Source of the DNA: a virus
Reading direction: 5' to 3' (one strand)
IMG/VR virus record: IMGVR_UViG_3300025769_001142
Location: 1-20,099 of that record
Length of the DNA stretch: 20,099 bases
Part shown: piece by piece, positions 2,201 to 20,099 of the stretch
Layout of the letters: each line of letters opens with the position of its first letter
Position numbering within the stretch: the first letter of the stretch is position 1
The notes under the pieces: model-generated
Told to the model about the DNA's origin: nothing
Seen by the model: only the letters and a program-made list of their open reading frames with translations
The model's database searches: none
Program-made: the position numbers and the translations under genes

Positions 2201-5200
2201 ATGGCAGATATAAATAAATTTACTACAAAAGAAGTACTAAACAAGGTACTTCTAGACTCTTCAGGCAACTCTGTAGCCGCAAATTCTCACACATCTCAAG
2301 AAGCGTTAAACGCTGTACTTGATACTTCTAACAATAGATTGAATGTATCCCTTGGTGGTAGTAATACTATTTCGGGTGACGTTACGATTACAGGCGACTT
2401 AACTGTACAAGGTAGTGGTACTAATACTTATGATGAAATAGTGCAAGGGCAACTTGTTGTTCAAACAGGAAGTTCAGGGGCAACTGTTGATAGTAATGCT
2501 GATGAATTAGTAGTAGAAAGCAATGGAAACGCTGGTATTTCTATACTTACACCTAATGCTAATACAGGACAATTAGTTTTTGGAAGTGATAGTGATGCTT
2601 ATGGTGCTTTTGTATCATGGCAGGGTAGTGCCAATCAAATGACGATTGCAACTGCTAATGATGGTGATTCTATGGTATTGCAAACAGCAAATAAAGTTAC
2701 TGCACTAACTATAGACTCAAGCCAAAATGCTAATTTTGCATCTAAAATTGGGATTGGAGTATCTCCCGTAGGTACTTTAGATATAAATATCAGCACAGAT
2801 GCAAGAGGTTCGTTTACTTCTAGTATAGGTGAAATTGGTTCTGGTGTCTTTGCATTACAAGTAGTTAATTCTGCTGGAAGTGCTTTAAAACCAATGGGAA
2901 TTAGAGCAGAAGATATAAGGCTTGTAACAGGTAGTGCTGAAAGAATAAGAATTAAAGACTCAGGGGTTGGTATTGGAAGTTCAAGTCCTATTTCAAATGT
3001 AGAAATAAAAGGAACAATTAGTGCTTTAGATGGAGTTCCATCTGGTTTAGTTGTTCATGATTCTGGCACAGCAAATTCTGGATTGCAATTAATAAACAAT
3101 AGTGGAAAGTTTGCTATACACGCTGATGGATCAAATGATAGAGTAGATTTTTATTTAGATGATGCAACTACAGGAAACAGTTTTGCTGGTTCAGATAAGC
3201 TATTAACTTTAAAATATGGAGTTGGTGTTGGTATTGGAACTGATAGTCCAGCAGAACTTGTTGAGGTTGAAAAAGACCAAAATGCTCATACGGTATTGCA
3301 AGTCGATAATAATACCGCTGGAACAGGAGCATCTGGTGGGTTTAAAGCATCTTCTGATGGAGCAGATTTATATGTAAGGTCATTTTCTTCAAGCTTTACC
3401 ACATCTGGTCGTAACATACAAGATTCAGTTCAATTATTAAGTGTAGGAGCATCTGGTGGGTTTGTAATTGCATCAAATCATGCTACTGCTGATATGTCAT
3501 TTTGGACAAATGATACTAAAAGATTAACTATTGATGGTGATACAGGAAATGTTGGTATTGGAGAAGACTCTCCAGACGAATTATTGCATTTAAAATCATC
3601 TACCGATGCTAAACCAGTCATTAAAATAGAACAATCTGGAAATAATGTAAATGGTGGCGGTCTTATATTTCTAACAAGCGGAACTGCTAATGATAATGAT
3701 GATTCTGGGGTTATAAGATTTAAAGGAATGAACGACGCTGGTACTCCAGAAGAAATTGAATATGCTACAATATATGTAAATCACGATGACGTATCTGATG
3801 GTTCAGAAGATGCTACTATGCATTTTAGAACTCAAAGCGGTGGTTCATTAGACTCAAGATTAGTTATTCAAGGAAGCAACGTTGGTATTGGAAATACAAA
3901 TCCTTCAGTTGCTTTAGATGTTACTGGACAAATTAATGCCAGTACCAATATACTTGCAATGAGTGGACTTTATTCAAACGAATTAATCACAAGAAGTGGT
4001 AGTACTCTTGCTATTAAAACTTCTGGTGGTGCTAATATTGTAAAATTAGACACCGACTCCAGAATCTCACTTTCTAATAATGGTGGTACTGAAACAACTG
4101 TATTTGGTCAAGAAGCTCTAAATTCTGGTATAGGTGGTTCAGACGTAAGGTATTCTGTAGCAATAGGTCATAGAGCATTGATGTCTGAAGATTCAACAGA
4201 TGGAGCTACAGCAGTTGGTTATCAAGCATTAATTTCGCAAAACCAAACAGGAGAAACAGGAAATACAGGAATAGGTTATCAATCCATATATAATAATGTG
4301 ACAGGCACAAAAAATACTGCTGTAGGATGGAAAGCATTAAAAGGTACAGGTTCTCAAAGTGGTTCTAACATTACAGCTATTGGAAGTGAGGCGTTAGCTG
4401 TGGCTTATGGTCAAGGAAATACTGCTCTAGGTCAAAAAAGTGGAGTTGCCTTGACGAGTGGAGTAAGAAATGTATTAATAGGAGTAGATGCTGGTGCAAC
4501 TGCTACAACTTCTAGTAATATGGTTTTAGTAGGAGCTTTTGCTGGTGATTCAATAAATAACACAGGGGCAGATGGTACAGTTGCGATAGGAAGAGATTCG
4601 CTTACAGCATTGACATCTGCACAAAGAATGACTGCTGTTGGTTATCAAGCTTTATCGTCAGAAGATGCTGGTAGCTATCAAACTGCTGTAGGTTATCAAG
4701 CACTATCGCAAGTAAATAATGATAATGGTCATAATACAGCTTTGGGTCAAAGAGCTGGTTATAACTTAACTACAGGAAACTCTAACACGATTATAGGCTC
4801 TGGTGCAGATGCTAGTGGTTCTGGTGGAGTTAATCAAATAGTAATAGGTCAAAGTGCAACAGGACAAGCAGATAATTCAGTAACGCTTGGTAATAGTTCT
4901 GTATCTAATTTTTATCTAGCACCGGGAAATACATCTGGGCAAACCATAAATTTTAATGATGCTGGTGCTGGTGGGTTTATACAGTATGACCATAGCGATG
5001 ACCAACTAAAATTGGCTGTTGCTGATACTATTAATGTTAGATTGTATAATGGCAGATTAGAACCCGGATCTGATGATACTCAAGACTTAGGAAGCACAAC
5101 AAGGGCATGGCATACTTTATATGTAAAAGATGGAATAAACTTTCCAGATGATGCTTCTGCAAATCCAAGTTCAGATGCAAATACTCTGGATAACTACGAA

Positions 5201-5617
5201 GAAGGCGACCACAATCCAACTACTGTTGTTGGTGCATCTGGTGGAGATTATACAGTAGATAGTACAAATGATGTTTTAAGATATACAAAGATAGGAAGGC
5301 TTGTAAATATACAAGGTCTTATTCTTATTACTGGAGATAATTCTGCATCGGGGCAACTTAGAATTTCTTTACCATTTACGATAGGAGACGGAACAGGACT
5401 TAGTGGAAGGTCTTATGGAAGTGCTTATTTATCTTCTCATGGAAGCGGCAGTGCGAACGATACACCGATAGAAGGTAAAGTTTATGCTAAATTAGAAGAA
5501 GGTAATGCTTTTTTTACTTTAGTAGAAGTAAATGACGATGGAACTGATAATGATATAGATAATGCAGATGTAGATGATGCATTTAACATAGGTGTTAATT
5601 TTAGTTATACTGTATAG
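2201..5617 (+). CDS. Large modular tail fibre with GIG repeats and YadA-type head repeats
   Basis: 1138 residues. The N-terminus (1-60) would attach to the tail. VTITGDLTVQGSG near 60-72 is the beta pattern common in phage fibres. Five spaced modules carry a (V/I)GIGxxxP signature at about residues 183, 256, 343, 451 and 561, each preceding a trimeric beta or coiled segment. Residues about 632-903 hold roughly 16 tandem repeats of TAVGYQAL type, the YadA-head left-handed beta-roll repeat. After this come DLGSTTRAWHTLYV (about 963-976), a LDNYEEGDHNP linker near 996, and a beta-rich tip with TKIGRLVNIQG, the likely host-contacting domain. I see no S74 self-cleaving chaperone motif. The product is expected to trimerise. 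Host receptor unknown. Confidence 0.9.
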   Translation: MADINKFTTKEVLNKVLLDSSGNSVAANSHTSQEALNAVLDTSNNRLNVSLGGSNTISGDVTITGDLTVQGSGTNTYDEIVQGQLVVQTGSSGATVDSNADELVVESNGNAGISILTPNANTGQLVFGSDSDAYGAFVSWQGSANQMTIATANDGDSMVLQTANKVTALTIDSSQNANFASKIGIGVSPVGTLDINISTDARGSFTSSIGEIGSGVFALQVVNSAGSALKPMGIRAEDIRLVTGSAERIRIKDSGVGIGSSSPISNVEIKGTISALDGVPSGLVVHDSGTANSGLQLINNSGKFAIHADGSNDRVDFYLDDATTGNSFAGSDKLLTLKYGVGVGIGTDSPAELVEVEKDQNAHTVLQVDNNTAGTGASGGFKASSDGADLYVRSFSSSFTTSGRNIQDSVQLLSVGASGGFVIASNHATADMSFWTNDTKRLTIDGDTGNVGIGEDSPDELLHLKSSTDAKPVIKIEQSGNNVNGGGLIFLTSGTANDNDDSGVIRFKGMNDAGTPEEIEYATIYVNHDDVSDGSEDATMHFRTQSGGSLDSRLVIQGSNVGIGNTNPSVALDVTGQINASTNILAMSGLYSNELITRSGSTLAIKTSGGANIVKLDTDSRISLSNNGGTETTVFGQEALNSGIGGSDVRYSVAIGHRALMSEDSTDGATAVGYQALISQNQTGETGNTGIGYQSIYNNVTGTKNTAVGWKALKGTGSQSGSNITAIGSEALAVAYGQGNTALGQKSGVALTSGVRNVLIGVDAGATATTSSNMVLVGAFAGDSINNTGADGTVAIGRDSLTALTSAQRMTAVGYQALSSEDAGSYQTAVGYQALSQVNNDNGHNTALGQRAGYNLTTGNSNTIIGSGADASGSGGVNQIVIGQSATGQADNSVTLGNSSVSNFYLAPGNTSGQTINFNDAGAGGFIQYDHSDDQLKLAVADTINVRLYNGRLEPGSDDTQDLGSTTRAWHTLYVKDGINFPDDASANPSSDANTLDNYEEGDHNPTTVVGASGGDYTVDSTNDVLRYTKIGRLVNIQGLILITGDNSASGQLRISLPFTIGDGTGLSGRSYGSAYLSSHGSGSANDTPIEGKVYAKLEEGNAFFTLVEVNDDGTDNDIDNADVDDAFNIGVNFSYTV
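4097..4910 (+). repeat. YadA-head-type repeat array inside the fibre
   Basis: About sixteen repeats of 14-20 residues share a core of small/hydrophobic residue, I/V/L, G, then Y/Q/W/S and an A-L or A-G pair, for example TAVGYQAL, TGIGYQSI, TAVGWKAL, TALGQKSG, VLIGVDAG and TALGQRAG. TAVGYQAL occurs three times. At DNA level the copies are diverged (GTTGGTTATCAAGC recurs with changes), so recent duplication is limited to a few units. In YadA such repeats build a trimeric left-handed beta-roll. Loops between cores vary most, as expected for a surface-exposed shaft or head. Confidence 0.8.
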
Positions 5618-8349: not shown

Positions 8350-8526
8350 ATGTTAGTAAAAATGATTGCAGATGAATTGTTGTCTGACAGCACTAAGGAT
8401 GAGCTTATTGATGAGCTTAATAAGTCTATTGACATTCCAATTATTAGTGAAAAAACAGAGAAGGCTATACTTGAAGCACTATGGAAGATAATCAAAAGCA
8501 TATTGTTAAAAAAGCTAGGTGTCTAG
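8350..8526 (+). CDS. 58-residue helical protein of unknown role
   Basis: The ATG at 8350 has a strong ribosome-binding site (AAGGAG at 8335-8340, nine bases away). It ends at TAG 8524-8526, just before the GTG of the next gene at 8528. The product is charged and helical, with DELLSDSTKDELIDELNKS (about 8-26), a conspicuous IDIPIISEKTEKAILEALW segment (about 27-45), and an amphipathic C-terminal helix KIIKSILLKKLG that could lie on a membrane. I recall similar small proteins with an IDIP..NEK motif in marine phages, with no known function. Confidence 0.6.
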   Translation: MLVKMIADELLSDSTKDELIDELNKSIDIPIISEKTEKAILEALWKIIKSILLKKLGV

Positions 8527-8527
8527 A

Positions 8528-8836
8528 GTGGCTAAAAAGAAAGACCCTAGGTTGGCAAGAGCTGGTGTATCTGGTTATAATAAACCAAAGAGAACTCCAA
8601 GCCACCCTACTAAATCTCATGTTGTAGTTGCTAAAGAAGGTGACAAGATAAAGACTATTAGGTTTGGTCAGCAGGGTAAAAAAGTTGGAAAGCTTTCTGG
8701 AACAGCAGGTAAACCAAAGAGGGGTGAGTCTGCTAGAATGAAAGCAAAGCGTAAATCATTTAAGGCTCGTCATGCTAAGAATATTGCAAGAGGTAAGATG
8801 TCAGCGGCATGGTGGGCTAATAAGGTGAAATGGTAA
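8528..8836 (+). CDS. Lys/Arg-rich protein, DUF6321-like
   Basis: 102 residues from the GTG at 8528 (MAKKKDPRLARAGVSGYNKP). A GTG at 8519 is in frame and adds three residues (MSR), but it overlaps the previous gene and gives a worse match. Very basic: KRTPSHPTKSH near residues 20-31, then a beta segment HVVVAKEGDKIKTIRFGQQG (about 31-50), then a basic stretch ending in RRKSFKARH-like KRKSFKARHAKNIARGKMSAAWWANKVKW (about 74-102). This is the phage family I know as DUF6321, from memory. The role is unknown; tight positive charge suggests nucleic-acid or envelope contact. No zinc or catalytic motif. Confidence 0.75.
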   Translation: MAKKKDPRLARAGVSGYNKPKRTPSHPTKSHVVVAKEGDKIKTIRFGQQGKKVGKLSGTAGKPKRGESARMKAKRKSFKARHAKNIARGKMSAAWWANKVKW

Positions 8837-8997
8837 TGAATAAAAAAGTAAGAGCACCTAAAGGTTATCATTGGATGAAGTCTGGCTCAAGTTACAAGCT
8901 TATGAAACATAGTGGTAAATTTAAAGCTCATAAAGGAGCTAGTATAATGGCTGACTTCAAAGTACAAATGAAACATACTAAGCCAAAAAAGAAATAA
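8836..8997 (+). CDS. 53-residue basic protein
   Basis: TAATG junctions at both ends (8834-8838 and 8995-8999) bracket this reading frame exactly. The product opens MNKKVRAPKGYHWMKSGSSY and continues with KLMKHSGKFKAHKGAS, ending in a Lys tail (HTKPKKK). APKGYHWM followed by a Gly/His/Lys-rich region recurs in small proteins I remember from marine phages. Of 53 residues, 16 are Lys or Arg. It is the middle member of three consecutive basic proteins. Function unknown. Confidence 0.65.
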   Translation: MNKKVRAPKGYHWMKSGSSYKLMKHSGKFKAHKGASIMADFKVQMKHTKPKKK

Positions 8998-9377
8998 TGG
9001 CAACGGCTAAGAAAAAAGACCCTGCTAAATGGGCAAGAGCCAAGGCTAAGGCTAGGTCTAAGATGGGAGGTCACTCTGCCAGAGCAATGCAACTTGCAGT
9101 TAAGTATTATAAAGATATGGGTGGAAGATACTCTGGTAAAAAATCTTCTGGTAATAAATTATCTAAATGGTCTAAGCAAAAGTGGGATTATGTCAGCAAA
9201 GGAGACGCAAAGAAACCAAAAAAGAAACGTGGTCGTTACTTACCTGAGTCAGTTAGGAAAGGTCTTAGTCCCGGCCAAAAGAGTTCTACAAACAGAGCAA
9301 AAAGAAAAGCCTCTGCTTCAGGAAGAAGAAAAGCTAAATACAGCAAATCAATAGCAAGGAAGGTTCGCAATGCCTAA
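8997..9377 (+). CDS. Lys/Arg-rich protein, DUF5872-like
   Basis: 126 residues. It opens MATAKKKDPAKWARAKAKAR, sharing KKKDPxxxxRA with the 8528 product. The central HSARAMQLAVKYYKDMGGRY (about 25-44) and KWSKQKWDYVS (about 57-67) are the core I associate with DUF5872, from memory. After RGRYLPESVRKGLSPGQ (about 78-94) the C-terminus is a Lys/Arg/Ser tail. Net charge is very high, like a DNA-condensing protein. The last eight bases overlap the start of the peptidase gene. Possible roles are DNA binding in the virion or host, or contact with the negatively charged envelope; neither is shown. Confidence 0.75.
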   Translation: MATAKKKDPAKWARAKAKARSKMGGHSARAMQLAVKYYKDMGGRYSGKKSSGNKLSKWSKQKWDYVSKGDAKKPKKKRGRYLPESVRKGLSPGQKSSTNRAKRKASASGRRKAKYSKSIARKVRNA

Positions 9378-13267: not shown

Positions 13268-14326
13268 ATGAAGTATAAAACAATGAAAGAATATTTAGGT
13301 GGTGGTTACATGAAGCCTATGCTTTACCAGACAGGAGGTTATATACCCGGATTGTCTCGTGCACGCTATGGCTTAGGTTTACAAAGAGATGTAACTAGAG
13401 CACAAGAAGAATTTGAAGAGCAATCTAGAAGGTTAGCTGAAGAGCAAAGAGGTAGAGGTTTGCTTAGTGGAGCTGGTAAGGCTTTAGGAACAGCTTTAGG
13501 TGCGGCTCTTGCTCCAGCAACAGGGGGACTAAGTTTGGTAGCCGCTAAGGGAATTGGCTCAGCTTTAGGCTCTGGATTAGGTGAACTAGCTGGTGGTAAG
13601 CTGTATGATGCAGGTGATATGAAAGCTTCTAAAACAGGTTTGTTTAGAGAAGATTTTGCAAAGCTAAAAGAAATGGAAAAAGCTAGCGAAGAAGGAGTTC
13701 TTGATAGAGCTATAGGTGCAGGAGCTGGAACTGCTCTAGGAGCTGGGTTAGGAATGGCTGTGGATAAACTTGGTAGCTATGCTCCGGGTGAGCTTTTCGA
13801 TAAGGCTAAATATAAACTTAAAGGAGCTTTGGGTAGAGCTGGTGGTGCGAAATACTCAGACCCTGTTAAAGCAGATTTTGGAGCTACTTTTAATCAAGGC
13901 ACTGGGTTATATGGCGACCTTCCTATTGAAAGTTTAGATGGCTTTGACCCAACTGAGATGGCGTATCTAGAATCTTTGCCTAGAGCACAGTCTTTAGGCG
14001 AAGCTAATCAGCTAGTTGGAATGGCTCAAGAATCAATGGCTTTAGAGGCTCAAATGAGGGAGTTGGCTGAAAACTTAGGAGGTATTATTGATGCTCAAAC
14101 AAGCCCTACAGGTATGATGAAAGGTGGTCAGTTAAAAGAAGTACCAGAAGGTAACAAAGGTTTGATGAATTTGCCTGAAGAAGTTAGAAACAAAATGGGA
14201 TACATGATGAAAGGTGGAATGATGGATAACTATATGTATGGTGGCATGGCTAAGAAGAAAAAGAAGTATGGATATATGGGAGGAGGATTATTAGATATGA
14301 TGCCTTTTAGTAGGAGGATTGTATAA
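13268..14326 (+). CDS. Gly/Ala-rich internal virion protein with MxxGG motifs
   Basis: 352 residues from the ATG at 13268, which has AGAGGA at 13258-13263 and avoids a 91-base overlap; an upstream in-frame start at 13169 is not credible. The N-terminus carries YLGGGYMKPMLYQTGGYIPG, a charged coil follows (about 38-60), then two membrane-active Gly/Ala-rich segments: about 63-112 (GKALGTALGAALAPATGG... and GIGSALGSGLGELAGGK) and about 150-166. The C-terminus repeats TGMMKGGQL, YMMKGGMM, YMYGGMA, a KKKKK run and YMGGGLLDMM. Small-residue helices of this kind are typical of ejection proteins that insert into the host envelope. The MxxGG motif also occurs in the next protein. Exact role unknown. 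Confidence 0.65.
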   Translation: MKYKTMKEYLGGGYMKPMLYQTGGYIPGLSRARYGLGLQRDVTRAQEEFEEQSRRLAEEQRGRGLLSGAGKALGTALGAALAPATGGLSLVAAKGIGSALGSGLGELAGGKLYDAGDMKASKTGLFREDFAKLKEMEKASEEGVLDRAIGAGAGTALGAGLGMAVDKLGSYAPGELFDKAKYKLKGALGRAGGAKYSDPVKADFGATFNQGTGLYGDLPIESLDGFDPTEMAYLESLPRAQSLGEANQLVGMAQESMALEAQMRELAENLGGIIDAQTSPTGMMKGGQLKEVPEGNKGLMNLPEEVRNKMGYMMKGGMMDNYMYGGMAKKKKKYGYMGGGLLDMMPFSRRIV

Positions 14327-15444
14327 TGGCTCAAGCAGATAACGTAGGCCCAGTTATGCTTAAAAGCGGAGAGTATGTTGTCCGTAAAGAAGCAGTAGAT
14401 AAACTAGGAAAAGATACAATGGACATGATAAACAACGCAGATAGATTAGGTTATATGGGAGGAGGTTTAGTCCCCAAAGGAGGACATGGGCACTCTGCTA
14501 TAGATGAACTACTTGCTTTGAATACATTAAGCACTCAAAAGAATACTGATATGACTAGGCAGTCTGCTATGATGCAACGTGGAGGTCAGATAAAACCAAT
14601 CATGAGTAAGGAAAAGAGTACTTATTCAATAGGAGTAGTAGATGACCTTGCAAAAAGCTTAGGTTACTTTGATGACATGAGTGAGTTTGTAATACCTTTC
14701 AATAAAAGAAGTAGAGGATTACTAGATGACCTTGAAGAAGCTGGTGAGCTTGATACTCAAAAGGCTTTAGAAGCTCTTGACTTGATAGCAAAAAGATATT
14801 ACGAAGGCACTGCTGACAAGATGTCTAAGCCTAAGAAATACCAAGATGGCGGAATGATAAGCTATGGTTCTCAAACAACTTCTGCTCCTACATTAGAAGA
14901 ATTATACGCACAAGCAGGAATAACTCCTGTAGGTGAACAAAGAAGACAGTTTGAAAGCCAGTTTACCTATGACCCTTCTAGAGAAGAAACAACTGTAGCA
15001 GGATACCTACAAGGTTTAGCAGGAACAAGAGCTTCTGGAACAGGTGCATTAGGTAGGGCTATGGCTGGAGCAGAAGGAGCTGGAGGTGGCTTTGCTGGGT
15101 TTGGAGCTAGAGCTGGTGCAACTCAAATGGCAAGAGAAGCCGCTCAACGTGGATATGAGTCAGCTCAAGAAAGTGCTCAAAGAGGAATGTTTGAAGATAT
15201 AAGGTCTCAAAGAGAACGTTACACCCAAGATGCATTAGCACAGCTAGGTCAGTTAGAAGATGTTGGTGGCACTCAAACATATACTGCCCCTCCTCCTGAG
15301 GTTAGTAGTTTACCCTCGTCAGACCAAGGAGCAGTTACTTATAATGGAGTTTCCTATGTATGGGATTCTGAATCTGGACAATACATTACCGAAGACCAGT
15401 ACGAGCAAGGTATGAGTGAACATTACGATAGCATGTACGGTTAA
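14326..15444 (+). CDS. Virion protein with tape-measure-type LKSGEYVVRKEAV motif
   Basis: 372 residues, joined to the previous gene by TAATG. Residues 8-40 (GPVMLKSGEYVVRKEAVDKL and following) match the short motif "P-x-x-L-x-x-GE-(Y/F)-V-(V/I)-x-K-x-A-x-x-x-(G/L)" found in long-tail tape measures and in some internal virion proteins. YMGGGLVPKGG (about 43-53), MMQRGGQIKP (about 83-92) and KYQDGGMISYG (about 172-182) repeat the (M/Q)xxGG pattern. A Gly/Ala-rich stretch lies at about 228-285 (with GAEGAGGGFAGFGARAGA), followed by Arg/Gln coil (QRGYESAQESAQRGMFED) and a PPPEV-rich tail. Likely carried in the virion next to its neighbours; inferred. Confidence 0.65.
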   Translation: MAQADNVGPVMLKSGEYVVRKEAVDKLGKDTMDMINNADRLGYMGGGLVPKGGHGHSAIDELLALNTLSTQKNTDMTRQSAMMQRGGQIKPIMSKEKSTYSIGVVDDLAKSLGYFDDMSEFVIPFNKRSRGLLDDLEEAGELDTQKALEALDLIAKRYYEGTADKMSKPKKYQDGGMISYGSQTTSAPTLEELYAQAGITPVGEQRRQFESQFTYDPSREETTVAGYLQGLAGTRASGTGALGRAMAGAEGAGGGFAGFGARAGATQMAREAAQRGYESAQESAQRGMFEDIRSQRERYTQDALAQLGQLEDVGGTQTYTAPPPEVSSLPSSDQGAVTYNGVSYVWDSESGQYITEDQYEQGMSEHYDSMYG

Positions 15445-15459
15445 CATTAAGGAGTTATA

Positions 15460-16968
15460 ATGGCAATAAGATTAATCAATAGACCTTCTGTTACACTTCA
15501 AGAGCCTGAAAGTGGTCTAGATGTATTCTTAAAAGAAGTGGCTAAGTACTCTAGCCCTGAGTATCAATTACGAAGAAAAGAATCAGAAAGAGCAGATGCT
15601 AGGCTAGAGTTATCTAAAAGACAACAAGAGCAAACTGAAGAAAGATATGCAGATTTACTCAATCAACAAGATATAGAAAACAGATTAGCTAGTAATAGAG
15701 AAGAAAGACTTCAGTCTGATTTTGAAATGAAGCAAAAGCAAAGCTATAGAAACATGGCTCAAGAATCTATTAGAAACCAAACAGCTGGTATGAACGCAGA
15801 GCAAATAGCTAATTACCCTATAGAGGCTTATAGTTCAGATGTAGATGACCCAAAGCTTAAAATGTCTATAGCAAGGCAAGCTAAAAATGTACAGAAAAAT
15901 GCCAAGTTAAGAGTTGAAACAATACAGCAAAGGATTTCAAATCACAACTCAAAGTATCCAGATAATCAAATTTCAGATAATGAGGGCATGCTTTTATTCT
16001 CAGATGACACTTCATATAGAGAGCATCTATCAAATCTATACTTAGATGTCTCAAAGAAAGGTGACTTAACTCCTCAACAACTAGGGCAAATAAGGTATTT
16101 AACAGGAAAAATCTCTGATGCTGATGAGCAAGTAGCCAATATACGCTCTCAACTAGCTTCGGGAATAGCAATACAAAATGCTGAGGATAAAATAACAGAT
16201 TTTGAACTTATGGCAAATAATGCTCGCAATAAAGTAGAAGGTATCTTAGGGATAACTGCTCAAGAAGAACAAACAGGGGGAGACCCTTATGGAGATGCAT
16301 ATGAAGATGATGCATATAAGCAAGTAGATACTAAGATAGCAAGCCTTTATGGCGAAGACGCACTTGACCCTTCTTCAGATACATATAAAATACTATTTGC
16401 TGATGATTTGGAAATTCCAGAACCTCCTATGGACATAGCCACTGAAAATGCAAAAGATGAAAGCGAGATAATTTCTGGTATTCCAACAGTTGATATACAG
16501 CCAGAAGAAGAAGAAAGTGAAGAAAAAACAAGTGTAGCAGATAGGTTATTATCTGGTTTATCTGGAGTTCAAGCTCAACCTACAGAAAAAACTGAGCCTT
16601 CTGAAGCTCCTGAATTGTTCCCAGAACAAGAAGAGAAAGGAGTTTTTGGAAAAGAAATACCCGGTAAAGATAAAAGTATTTTTAATCAAGAAAGAAGACT
16701 TAGGAATCCATCAGTAGGTTCTAAGATATTAAAGAAGAAAATCAAAAATCTTAAGAAGGATATAAGAATATCCGAAACTGCTCCCAATTTAAAAACTAGA
16801 GAAAATTTTAAAAAAGGTTTACCTAAGCAAATACAGGAGTTGAAAGATTTATTTAGTGTTATTTACGATGAATCTACAAATGCTTTTTACAATCCTAATA
16901 ATCCAAAGGCAGGGACTTACGAAGACAGGTTAGGTCAGGAAGATATAGAATTTCTTAAAGGATTATAA
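15460..16968 (+). CDS. Coiled-coil internal virion protein
   Basis: 502 residues with AAGGAG at 15449-15454 and a TAATG junction at its end. The first 160 residues are strongly heptad-like and charged (KESERADARLELSKRQQEQT-type), predicting an extended coiled coil. The middle is helical (DLTPQQLGQIRYLTGKIS at about 203-220), then an acidic low-complexity linker (about 340-395, including EEEESEEKTS and EPSEAPELFPEQEEK), then a basic helix (SKILKKKIKNLKKDIR at about 422-437). This shape fits the T7 gp15 class of internal core proteins, which assemble a periplasm-spanning tube. No sequence motif proves the match. Position before the largest gene supports it. Confidence 0.6.
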   Translation: MAIRLINRPSVTLQEPESGLDVFLKEVAKYSSPEYQLRRKESERADARLELSKRQQEQTEERYADLLNQQDIENRLASNREERLQSDFEMKQKQSYRNMAQESIRNQTAGMNAEQIANYPIEAYSSDVDDPKLKMSIARQAKNVQKNAKLRVETIQQRISNHNSKYPDNQISDNEGMLLFSDDTSYREHLSNLYLDVSKKGDLTPQQLGQIRYLTGKISDADEQVANIRSQLASGIAIQNAEDKITDFELMANNARNKVEGILGITAQEEQTGGDPYGDAYEDDAYKQVDTKIASLYGEDALDPSSDTYKILFADDLEIPEPPMDIATENAKDESEIISGIPTVDIQPEEEESEEKTSVADRLLSGLSGVQAQPTEKTEPSEAPELFPEQEEKGVFGKEIPGKDKSIFNQERRLRNPSVGSKILKKKIKNLKKDIRISETAPNLKTRENFKKGLPKQIQELKDLFSVIYDESTNAFYNPNNPKAGTYEDRLGQEDIEFLKGL

Positions 16969-19900
16969 TGTCTCAATTCAATCCAAACATGAGTAAAGAA
17001 CAGCTTGTTAATGACTTTAGAGCTGTTAACCCTTCTTACAATTCTATGAGCGATGACTTAGCTTATAGAATGATTGTTAGAAAATTTCCTCAATACAAAT
17101 TAAACTCAGAGACTCAGCAATATACACCTAAAGACGAAAGTGGTATAATAGATAAGCTAGGAGATGTATGGAAAGATGGTTACAATAGGTCTTTACAGGG
17201 AATGGTGTATGAGATAACTCAGGGTAAAAAGAAGTATGACTTAGGTAATTATCATCCGGGTCTTGTGTCTGACATAGCCGCAGGTGTAGCTTCATTCTTT
17301 CAACCTCTTGATTTTGCTACTACTCTTGCAGGTGGAGGTCTTGGAGGTGCGGCTACTAAAGCCGTAGCTACTAAGTATGTAACTAAAAAACTAATACAAA
17401 ATGGAGCTAAGCCTAAGGTAGCACAAAGAGCCGCTAGAATGGCTGTTAAATCAAATGCTTTACCAAAGGTAGCAACTGCATCTGCAGGTGGAGCAGGAGC
17501 TTTAGGTTTGTACTCTGGAGCTGGAGAAGCATTGAATGAATATATATCAGATGGGACAGTAACACCCGGTAAAGTAGTAAAGGCTGGGGCTAAAGGTGCA
17601 GTTCTAGGAGGTATGACAGGAGCTACAAATGCTTATCTAACTCAAAAAGGTGTAGGTGTTTTAGGTAGAACATTAGCAGAAGTTGCTGAGTTTGGAACAG
17701 TATCACCTGCATTAGAAGGAAGAACTCCTACTACAGAAGACTGGATTCATGCAGGAGGTATGATACTAGGTATTAAGGGTGTAAATACAGTAGCTAGTAA
17801 AGGATTTAAAAAGCTTAATGAATTTAGAAAAGAGGCTACAAAGCAAGAGATAACTTACGAAACTGCACCATCAGATTTAGACTTAACTATACAAAGTAAA
17901 GAGATTGCAAGGCGAACTTATGAAACAGAGCTTCGTGATAATATATACGTAGATAACCAAAAGCAGAGAAGAAAAGTAAGGATTTTAAGTACTAATCCTG
18001 AAGAAGGTAAGGTACAATTTAGATTTACAGATACTAATGAGGTAGTTGTTAGAGATACAAAGTTCTTTAATCAAAACTATAGAAAAGAAAATTATGAAAA
18101 ATTAAGTCCTAAAGAATTAAAGGAAGTATATAGTAAAGAAATAAGAAAAATGGAAAAAGAGTTAGGGCACGACTCAACTCAAAAAGAAACTAATAGAGGT
18201 TTACGTAAAGCTTCTGAAGGTAAGAAAGCACTTCCTAAAACATTAAGAGAAAATAGCAATGGTTATCTATCTGAATTGCATGGTAAGCTTACCACTGAGT
18301 TATATACTAAGCAAGTATTAAATCACATGGAGAAAAATGGCATACCTATGCAGAAAGCTAGGTACAGTATTTTCTTAGATAATATACTACCAAAGCCAGC
18401 TAATAAATTATTAGATATTGTTAGACCAGCTAGAAACCAAGGAACTGTTAGCCCTATTAGAAGAATATACGTTGCTAAAGTAGACCAGTTTGTAGTAGAT
18501 CAAAGACGTACCTTGTCAGAAACATACGACTTAATGAGTGAATTTGGATTTAATACAGAGAAACCAACTAAAGCTCAAGTTGAAAGACTTTCTAATGCTA
18601 TAGGAATAAATAAATCTGAAGTTTCTAGTAGATATTGGGAGCTATTATCAGATGCTGTAGAAAAAGGAATAGATATAAAAGAGACAAGGGATTATAAGCA
18701 AATATCCGATTTTTTATTTAACAGGGCTAAGGAGTCTGGTGTAGATGTAGGTTATCTACAAAACTATATACCAAGAATATTAAAGCAAGGTCTTGCTGAA
18801 AAAGTATTTGCAGATATATATAAAATATCTGAATTTGTTTCTAAGGAATCTGCTAGAAGCGGAGAAGAAATGATGGTTAAGAATTTAAAAAGTGATTATA
18901 TAGATTTGATAATTCAAGCCATGAACAACCCAAATGATTTTATAAAAAACAGAGGTGGAGAAGCTAACTTTTTAAACAGAGTTATTAGAAATTCTATATC
19001 ATCTTTGTCTAAAGAAACAAGAGAAGCATACGACGAAATACTAAAAGGAGTAAAGAAACAAGATAAGCTTGAAGAGCTTAGTCCATTTAAGGCTATGGCT
19101 TTAATGGGGAGGTTGACATACGGAGAAGTATTTAAGCTTGATGGTAACTTAGAAAAATCTAGGACATATGAACTACCTAGCAACTTTTATGAAAAAGATA
19201 TTAGAAAACTTCTTGGTATATATTCTTCTAATGTAGCTAGGCGTTCAGCTGAGGTAAAAAACTTTGGAAGAAAGGGAGAGATATACGAAAATTTACTGAA
19301 CAATCTTAAAGGCTCTGAAAGTGACCTTGCTATAATGAGAGAGTTACATAATCACGTTATGGGAACAATAGGTTATAATAGAAGATACAATCTAAATCCC
19401 GGAATCAAAGACTTTATGCAAAAGGTTATGGAATGGGAAACTTCTACTAAGATTGCACTAGGTACAGCAACAGCTATGAACCTTTCTCAGTTTGCTATAT
19501 CATCTGCTCTATCTGCAGGGTATTGGAGATTTACAAAAGGTACTTACAAGTATATGACGGATAAAGAATTTAGAAAACAAGTTGATGCATCTGGTGGTAA
19601 CTTGTATAAGTATATCAACGAAATGATGGGGTTATCTCAACAAAGTGATATATCTAAAAAAGTAGTAGGTAAGTTAACTGACATATCTCAATTTAATAGA
19701 ATAAACTCTATTAATAATATATTAGCGGCCGCATCTGCAAGGGTATTAATAGATGACTTAGTAGCTATAACATCTGGAAAGAGAGGCATAGGGCTAGGAA
19801 GAATGGGTTCTAAAGGATGGGCTAAGTCTACATTAAGTAAGATGGGCATAGACCCTAACCAAATAAAAAACGGTAAGCTAGGAGACTCTGCAATAATAAA

Positions 19901-20099
19901 TGCTATGGGTAGATTTGCAGTTAGAACTCAGTTGCAGAAAGACATACTTGCAGACCCTCTTATTTTAAATAGACCTATTATGAAACCTTTTCTACAGTTT
20001 AAATCATTTGGTCTTAGGCAGTACAACTTTATAACAGATACATTGAAGTTTGATTTAGCACATGGAAACTTTATGCCACTACTTAGATTAGCGGCAGGT
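16968..20099 (+). CDS. Large internal virion/polyvalent-type protein, open at the right edge
   Basis: The reading frame starts at the TAATG overlap (16966-16970) and stays open for 1044 codons to the last base, so it is partial at its 3' end. Regions by residue: about 1-95 charged helical N-terminus; about 96-285 Gly/Ala-rich hydrophobic helices (GLVSDIAAGVASFFQPLD, VATASAGGAGALGLYSGAGEAL, GKVVKAGAKGAVLGGMTGAT) ending with HAGGMILGIKGVN; then a long helical, Lys/Glu-rich body with GVDVGYLQNYIPRIL near 590-605 and, near the end, NRPIMKPFLQFKSFGLRQYNF. The Y-(L)-x-N-Y-x-PR and the FxQFKSFxxRQ motifs are those of large polyvalent-protein-associated domains that I know from marine and proviral ejection proteins. 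It is the best gp16-like candidate; no transglycosylase glutamate motif is identified. Confidence 0.75.
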   Translation, partial: MSQFNPNMSKEQLVNDFRAVNPSYNSMSDDLAYRMIVRKFPQYKLNSETQQYTPKDESGIIDKLGDVWKDGYNRSLQGMVYEITQGKKKYDLGNYHPGLVSDIAAGVASFFQPLDFATTLAGGGLGGAATKAVATKYVTKKLIQNGAKPKVAQRAARMAVKSNALPKVATASAGGAGALGLYSGAGEALNEYISDGTVTPGKVVKAGAKGAVLGGMTGATNAYLTQKGVGVLGRTLAEVAEFGTVSPALEGRTPTTEDWIHAGGMILGIKGVNTVASKGFKKLNEFRKEATKQEITYETAPSDLDLTIQSKEIARRTYETELRDNIYVDNQKQRRKVRILSTNPEEGKVQFRFTDTNEVVVRDTKFFNQNYRKENYEKLSPKELKEVYSKEIRKMEKELGHDSTQKETNRGLRKASEGKKALPKTLRENSNGYLSELHGKLTTELYTKQVLNHMEKNGIPMQKARYSIFLDNILPKPANKLLDIVRPARNQGTVSPIRRIYVAKVDQFVVDQRRTLSETYDLMSEFGFNTEKPTKAQVERLSNAIGINKSEVSSRYWELLSDAVEKGIDIKETRDYKQISDFLFNRAKESGVDVGYLQNYIPRILKQGLAEKVFADIYKISEFVSKESARSGEEMMVKNLKSDYIDLIIQAMNNPNDFIKNRGGEANFLNRVIRNSISSLSKETREAYDEILKGVKKQDKLEELSPFKAMALMGRLTYGEVFKLDGNLEKSRTYELPSNFYEKDIRKLLGIYSSNVARRSAEVKNFGRKGEIYENLLNNLKGSESDLAIMRELHNHVMGTIGYNRRYNLNPGIKDFMQKVMEWETSTKIALGTATAMNLSQFAISSALSAGYWRFTKGTYKYMTDKEFRKQVDASGGNLYKYINEMMGLSQQSDISKKVVGKLTDISQFNRINSINNILAAASARVLIDDLVAITSGKRGIGLGRMGSKGWAKSTLSKMGIDPNQIKNGKLGDSAIINAMGRFAVRTQLQKDILADPLILNRPIMKPFLQFKSFGLRQYNFITDTLKFDLAHGNFMPLLRLAAG

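Follow-up and report, generated by a model that had tools for sequence, protein, structure and literature searches.

Two neighbouring genes in an uncultured virus record encode proteins punctuated by short glycine-pair motifs, which raises the question of what these proteins are and what the motifs do. The window analysed here, 20,099 bases, is the whole IMG/VR record (IMGVR_UViG_3300025769_001142), and the two genes (genes 1 and 2, Table 1) overlap in it by one base, at TAATG. A preliminary description, made from the sequence alone, had noted a motif theme common to both genes and a tape-measure-type motif in the second, in a podovirus-like region, and had offered docking sites, processing sites or flexible membrane-active linkers as explanations. 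All nine motifs that it quoted, the GPVMLKSGEYVVRKEAV segment and both copies of the DNA word TATATGGGAGGAGG are present in the window. Because they diverge fast, ejection proteins are harder to recognise than most other phage proteins. A short unit marking them across podoviruses, and marking tape measures as well, would help in searching for unannotated ejection genes, would link tape measures with ejection proteins by sequence, and would point to candidate docking residues for the portal or tail lumen.

Table 1. Positions of the genes, motifs and segments discussed in the text.
Feature	Position	Strand	Remarks
Gene 1	13268..14326	+	352 aa; MKYKTMKEY start (conserved), YxxGG twice, helical Gly-rich region, variable middle, region of cassettes, C-terminus YMGGGLLDMMPFSRRIV (conserved)
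YLGGG motif	13292..13306	+	gene 1 residues 9-13
YQTGG motif	13325..13339	+	gene 1 residues 20-24; Y20, G23, G24 near-invariant in 44 relatives
Gly/Ala-rich, moderately hydrophobic segment	13460..13612	+	gene 1, residues ~65-115
MMKGG motif	14114..14128	+	gene 1 residues 283-287
PEGNKGLMNLPEEVRNKMGY cassette (PEGNKGL module)	14129..14203	+	gene 1; bounded by two motifs
MMKGG motif	14204..14218	+	gene 1 residues 313-317
YMYGG motif	14231..14245	+	gene 1 residues 322-326; followed by KKKKK
YMGGG motif	14273..14287	+	gene 1 residues 336-340; TATATGGGAGGAGG copy 1; first half of split GG...GEYVV unit
Gene 2	14326..15444	+	372 aa; tape-measure-type unit at the N terminus, SAIDE..A...L helix (invariant), cassette, GxGFxxFGxR signature in the helical C-terminal region
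GPVMLKSGEYVVRKEAV	14347..14397	+	gene 2 residues 8-24; core of tape-measure-type unit
YMGGG motif	14452..14466	+	gene 2 residues 43-47; trailing motif of the unit; TATATGGGAGGAGG copy 2
SAIDELLALNTL helix	14494..14529	+	gene 2; S57-E61, A64, L68 invariant in 35 relatives
MQRGG motif	14572..14586	+	gene 2 residues 83-87
YQDGG motif	14839..14853	+	gene 2 residues 172-176
Gene 3	15460..16968	+	502 aa, motif-free; third gene of presumed ejection block
Gene 4	16968..20099	+	large (full-length relatives: 1212-1247 aa), truncated at the contig end; fourth of the presumed ejection block

The YxxGG motif in genes 1 and 2

Relatives of both genes were collected by searches of IMG/VR, and 44 non-redundant adjacent pairs were taken from the related contigs. 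The [YMF]xxGG motif occurs 383 times in these pairs, as compared with about 67 instances expected by shuffling. Both genes contribute: within-protein shuffles gave 40 expected motifs for the 201 observed in gene 1 products, and 27 for the 182 observed in gene 2 products. The window taken alone behaves likewise, with 6 motifs in gene 1 (1.4 expected) and 3 in gene 2 (0.7 expected). As can be seen from the consensus, Y-[MQN]-[GDEKN]-G-G-[LMY]-[VIM], the motif extends beyond the glycine pair, and Y is enriched 8.2-fold three residues ahead of GG. The copy number ranges from 1 to 10. The 383 instances are encoded by 214 different DNA words, indicating that selection acts on the protein; the repeat of TATATGGGAGGAGG on either side of the gene junction (exactly two copies, at 14273 and 14452, with 0.02 expected by chance when up to one mismatch is allowed) is therefore a by-product of coding.

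In gene 1, T5, Y20, G23, G24 and the C-terminal Y-x-x-G-G-L...R-R-I show little or no variation. In gene 2, P9, G15, E16, A23, N36, N37 and the S57-E61/A64/L68 helix are conserved, as are the GG pairs at 86-87 and 175-176. Thus, conservation covers the two ends of gene 1 and the start of gene 2, with a variable middle. The MKYNTI start conserved in the relatives supports the start of gene 1 at MKYKT. The motifs and their repetition are real and conserved: the theme holds for both genes, and the lack of conservation among relatives that would have spoken against it was not observed.

We also counted a stricter form of the motif in all proteins of six longer relatives and the window. Its density per 100 residues was 0.77 in gene 1, 0.72 in gene 2 and 0.019 in the 287 other proteins, i.e. 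about 40 times higher in the two genes than elsewhere. The 14 motifs found in the other proteins are near chance (9.4 expected); three of them belong to a gene 1 copy that was missed by the rule of the script, and two lie in the gene that follows the giant gene (gene 4 of the window).

A tape-measure-type unit across the gene junction

The GEYVV segment of gene 2 matches several tape-measure PHROG families: phrog_3547 is matched by 19 of 35 relatives (best E 8e-7), phrog_10030 by 14, phrog_37649 by 6 and phrog_973 by 3. For comparison we used 13 tape-measure or tape-measure-like proteins of other phages, which were picked by their match to the GEYVV core and not by the GG motif. In these unrelated proteins, [YFMW]xxGG occurs 1.62 times per 100 positions within 45 residues of the GE[YF]V core and 0.16 times elsewhere, a tenfold enrichment (Fisher p 1.2e-11). 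The trailing motif is present in 10 of 13 recognised units, and the composite unit in most of the 13 proteins. The stretch 'GEYVV...INNADRLGYMGGGLV' of the window copies this unit, as seen from the alignment of Kp4852-3 (VDFLHAINNGRLGAFADGGLV) with the window (KDTMDMINNADRLGYMGGGLV). Given the enrichment around GE[YF]V and the likeness between the window and tape measures, the glycine-pair theme and the tape-measure-type motif, which had been noted as two features, are therefore one composite unit. The PHROG matches and the comparison set both bear out the tape-measure-type motif noted at the start of gene 2.

Siphophage tape measures (PHROG 3547, 10030, 37649, 973 and others) and the window proteins have in common the arrangement [YF]xxGG ... 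SIPAMLxxGE[YF]VV ... IN..RLGx[YF]xxGGxV. The window proteins carry the GE[YF]V unit of tape measures, and a shared unit alone is not diagnostic of a family. Unlike siphophage tape measures, however, they are encoded in a podovirus-type genome, a gene junction divides their unit, and the GG part of the unit occurs in multiple copies. Nor does the locus encode a single very long helical protein of the tail-length type beside tail-tube and chaperone genes, as its products have 352 and 372 residues. The Roseobacter phages CRP-13 and CRP-1 also have the composite unit, in proteins encoded near the portal gene, and T4-like cyanophages have it in tail-region proteins. CRP-13 gp55, CRP-1 gp49 and cyanophage SSM2_012 resemble the window proteins in having a GE[YF]V core together with several [FYM]xxGG motifs, but they have core and GG motifs in one chain, contain other domains and lie at a different place in the genome. 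The literature that we searched contained no relevant description of the GEYVV/SDSIPA motif, which does not show that the motif is undescribed.

The TAATG junction falls inside the GG...GEYVV unit in all 44 pairs at a conserved spacing, and the one-base overlap is kept in 43 of them. Read across the stop and start codons, the distance from the last motif of gene 1 to the GE of gene 2 is 28-46 residues, mostly 28-30; the equivalent spacing in single-chain proteins is mostly 22-40. An origin of the two genes from a single protein is thus favoured by a junction lying inside the unit at about the single-chain spacing, and by the cassettes that cross the junction (see below), but no fused gene was found among the relatives. 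In our opinion, the simplest reading of these sequences is that an ancestral unit was split internally. The conserved gene ends indicate that the two proteins are separate today.

Exchange of cassettes between the two genes

We compared the segments between motifs among the pairs. The PEGNKGL module (PEGNKGLMNLPEEVRNKMGY) is found in gene 1 of 7 pairs and in gene 2 of 12, and the YMYGG-KKKK module in gene 1 of 10 pairs and in gene 2 of 9, neither ever occurring in both genes of a pair. Longer cassettes, too, sit in gene 1 of some phages and in gene 2 of others. Gene 1 of one contig (L133) and gene 2 of another (L135) have in common a 535-bp block with 89% DNA identity, the remaining aligned stretches being 67-80% identical; the block precedes the junction in L133 and follows it in L135. 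In a second case (L117/L132) the block is 297 bp long with 82% DNA identity. The borders of the cassettes are at or adjoining motifs. As judged from these alignments, motif-bounded pieces have moved between the two genes, for which domain exchange between ejection proteins provides a precedent (PMC8954989). None of the 143 cassette matches between a gene 1 and a gene 2 was within the same contig, where about 3 would be expected at random by a rough estimate; as the contigs are, moreover, related, mutual exclusion of cassettes within one phage is only suggestive. Movement of cassettes between neighbouring genes suggests that function resides in the modules and not in the carrier chain.

It is possible that the motifs are mainly flexible turns that separate modules and have no binding partner, and that they are retained because in-frame recombination between them does no harm and allows the gain, loss and movement of modules. 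The position of the cassette borders at or beside motifs, the variable copy number and the low confidence of the structural models at most motifs (likely disorder) would all fit this explanation. However, a plain linker requires neither the conserved aromatic residue three positions ahead of GG nor the V/I/M two residues past it, and gene 1 keeps its second and last motifs, and gene 2 its GG pairs, at conserved positions. Furthermore, the DNA words encoding the motifs are diverse and would therefore make poor recombination seams. We regard flexible turns of this kind as an unlikely explanation.

Genomic setting and possible role

In a 42-kb relative (G001), the portal is of P22 type (PF16510, E 4e-50) and the major capsid protein of SU10 type (PF17236, E 1e-27); genes for a terminase and a DnaB helicase are present as well. 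The SU10-type adaptor falls just below the cut-off in this relative, and the window's own copy just above it. Between the portal and capsid genes, in the place of a scaffold gene, lies an acidic gene without a family match (G001 34113-34868). No long tape measure was found in the contigs of the longer relatives. The region is thus podovirus-like, as had been proposed, and the nearby recognisable long tape measure that would have contradicted the proposal was not encountered. To our knowledge, there is no cultured relative; neither protein matched any of 50,697 phage records in tblastn at E 0.01, and a host search through cellular genomes found no relative.

In the relatives, the nozzle-like gene is followed by the gene of a 222-aa protein, by genes 1 and 2, and by two genes whose products have about 500 and about 1230 aa; in most, a 280-500 aa protein is encoded next, and convergent replication-type genes come thereafter. 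Genes 1 and 2 therefore lie at the end of the late operon, after the nozzle and fibre genes, i.e. at the place of the five ejection genes gp20-24 of the Kuravirus SU10, whose proteins leave the virion upon genome release (PMC9509320). The sizes are comparable (350, 322, 551 and 1473 aa for SU10 gp21-24; 352, 372, 502 and ~1230 for the block in the window), and the two phages have related capsid protein and adaptor families. SU10 gp20-24, which together with the ejection proteins of T7 and P22 are among the closest known systems, are without GEYVV and almost without YxxGG, unlike the window proteins. Profile comparison by hhalign with SU10 gp13 and gp16-24 gave no match above 6% probability (best 5.7%, for the giant gene only), and no transglycosylase was recognised in the presumed ejection block.

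A similar picture emerges from comparison with crAss001, where the cargo proteins gp45-47 have the same order as the block in the window. The order stabilisation protein, cargo 1, cargo 2, giant protein is found in the window by position and size only, with one extra small gene in between. Cargo protein 1 (gp45, PF25725), which is bound to the portal and tail barrel (PMC10172136), is encoded in the same neighbourhood, after the stabilisation/muzzle gene. Like the window proteins, it has a Gly-rich segment, putatively transmembrane in gp45, several [YF]xxGG-type motifs and mosaic relatives, and its portal-bound domain (residues 425-552) includes a GEVV segment; unlike the window pair, it is a single gene. 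Profile comparison by hhalign showed no homology to the gp45/gp46 families, PF25725 was not matched by the window proteins, and we rejected the possibility that genes 1 and 2 are split homologues of this cargo protein. In view of the failed profile comparisons with both phages, the likeness is an analogy by position and design.

Since genes 1 and 2 hold the place of the SU10 ejection proteins, we read their products as ejection (internal virion) proteins built of exchangeable, motif-punctuated modules. On balance, analogy and sequence favour their being the first two proteins of the ejection block, forming one extended modular system with docking units. The two proteins would be packed in the head and then ejected, acting together as one long, largely extended polypeptide system, like beads on a string, in which small exchangeable modules alternate with Y-x-x-G-G-x-V turns. 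The composite unit [YFM]xxGG ... IPAMLxxGEYVV ... IN..RLGxYxxGGxV straddles the gene junction. The YxxGG and GEYVV units may serve as short docking turns by which the chain is held at portal, tail lumen or partner ejection proteins, and the modules between them may be threaded out before the DNA follows. In gene 1, the Gly-rich part may be membrane-active, and might insert into the membrane; GxxxG occurs 475 times in the family (339 expected), and the predicted hydrophobicity of gene 1 is only moderate (best 19-residue mean 1.42). AlphaFold models of the two proteins are weak (pLDDT 55 and 54), suggesting long helices with low-confidence motif regions; Foldseek searches with them returned nothing meaningful (best E 0.32), and neither did a sequence search against solved structures. 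An uncultured podovirus lineage thus seems to have ejection-type proteins with a tape-measure GG-GEYVV-GG unit divided between two genes and with exchangeable cassettes between repeated GG motifs. More tentatively, YxxGG-GEYVV-YxxGG might act widely as a docking or hand-over element in proteins passing through the portal or tail, linking tape measures with ejection proteins and multiplied here into a cassette system between two co-working genes.

The same position bears on the possibility that the products are minor tail, head or scaffold-type structural proteins, either retained in the virion or lost before maturation. In one homologue branch (L007, 9962-11854, and G006) gene 2 ends with a Peptidase_S74 domain (endosialidase chaperone, E 4e-9), which is typical of tail fibres. 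A structural role is, however, quite improbable given the place of the two genes after the nozzle-like gene and ahead of the giant last genes, as for SU10 gp20-24 and crAss001 gp45-47, the Gly-rich segment and the tape-measure-type unit; the scaffold-like place is, moreover, already taken by the acidic gene of G001. Processing of the motifs by a phage protease during assembly is highly improbable. Although Gly-Gly is a common cleavage context and the motifs punctuate the chain, a partial scan of the G001 proteins revealed no prohead protease, and cuts at every motif would leave very short and medium pieces; as this would shred both proteins, cleavage is the least likely of the docking, processing and linker explanations. 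Low-complexity coincidence is refuted, even though both proteins are Gly-rich, by the five- to sevenfold fewer motifs in composition-keeping shuffles and by the conservation of motif positions in the 44 relatives.

Several other features were noted in these genomes. crAss001 gp45 (L032:41987-44515) and p-crAssphage gp47 (L142:6107-8680) share a cassette of ~60-120 aa (crAss001 residues 222-342, core 264-329) with 47-74% identity across distant crass-like phages; it is flanked by GG motifs inside otherwise dissimilar proteins, so that a second phage group shows mosaicism of a similar sort. The gene that follows the giant gene (L016:15160-15999, L002:12261-13106, L006:11110-12033, L015:9732-11231) has the N-terminal signature of gene 1 (MKSKSIKQYYQQGG in L004) and a stretch that by eye resembles ADP-ribosyltransferases, with a weak Pfam match to Tox-ART-HYD1 in L015 only (E 0.079); it could encode a virion-carried ADP-ribosyltransferase. 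On the minus strand of the G001 contig, two amidoligase-like genes (L018:2552-4369 and L018:55-1218) flank a gene with a glutamine amidotransferase-like start (MCGIFGF), and these may be peptide or cell-wall modification genes. In the window, two small, very Lys/Arg-rich proteins (8519-8836 and 8997-9377), conserved in relatives and possibly DNA-binding, are encoded ahead of the M15 endolysin gene. A 1138-aa fibre-like protein (2201-5617) has TAVGYQAL/NTAVGW repeats, which presumably resemble the head repeats of trimeric autotransporters.
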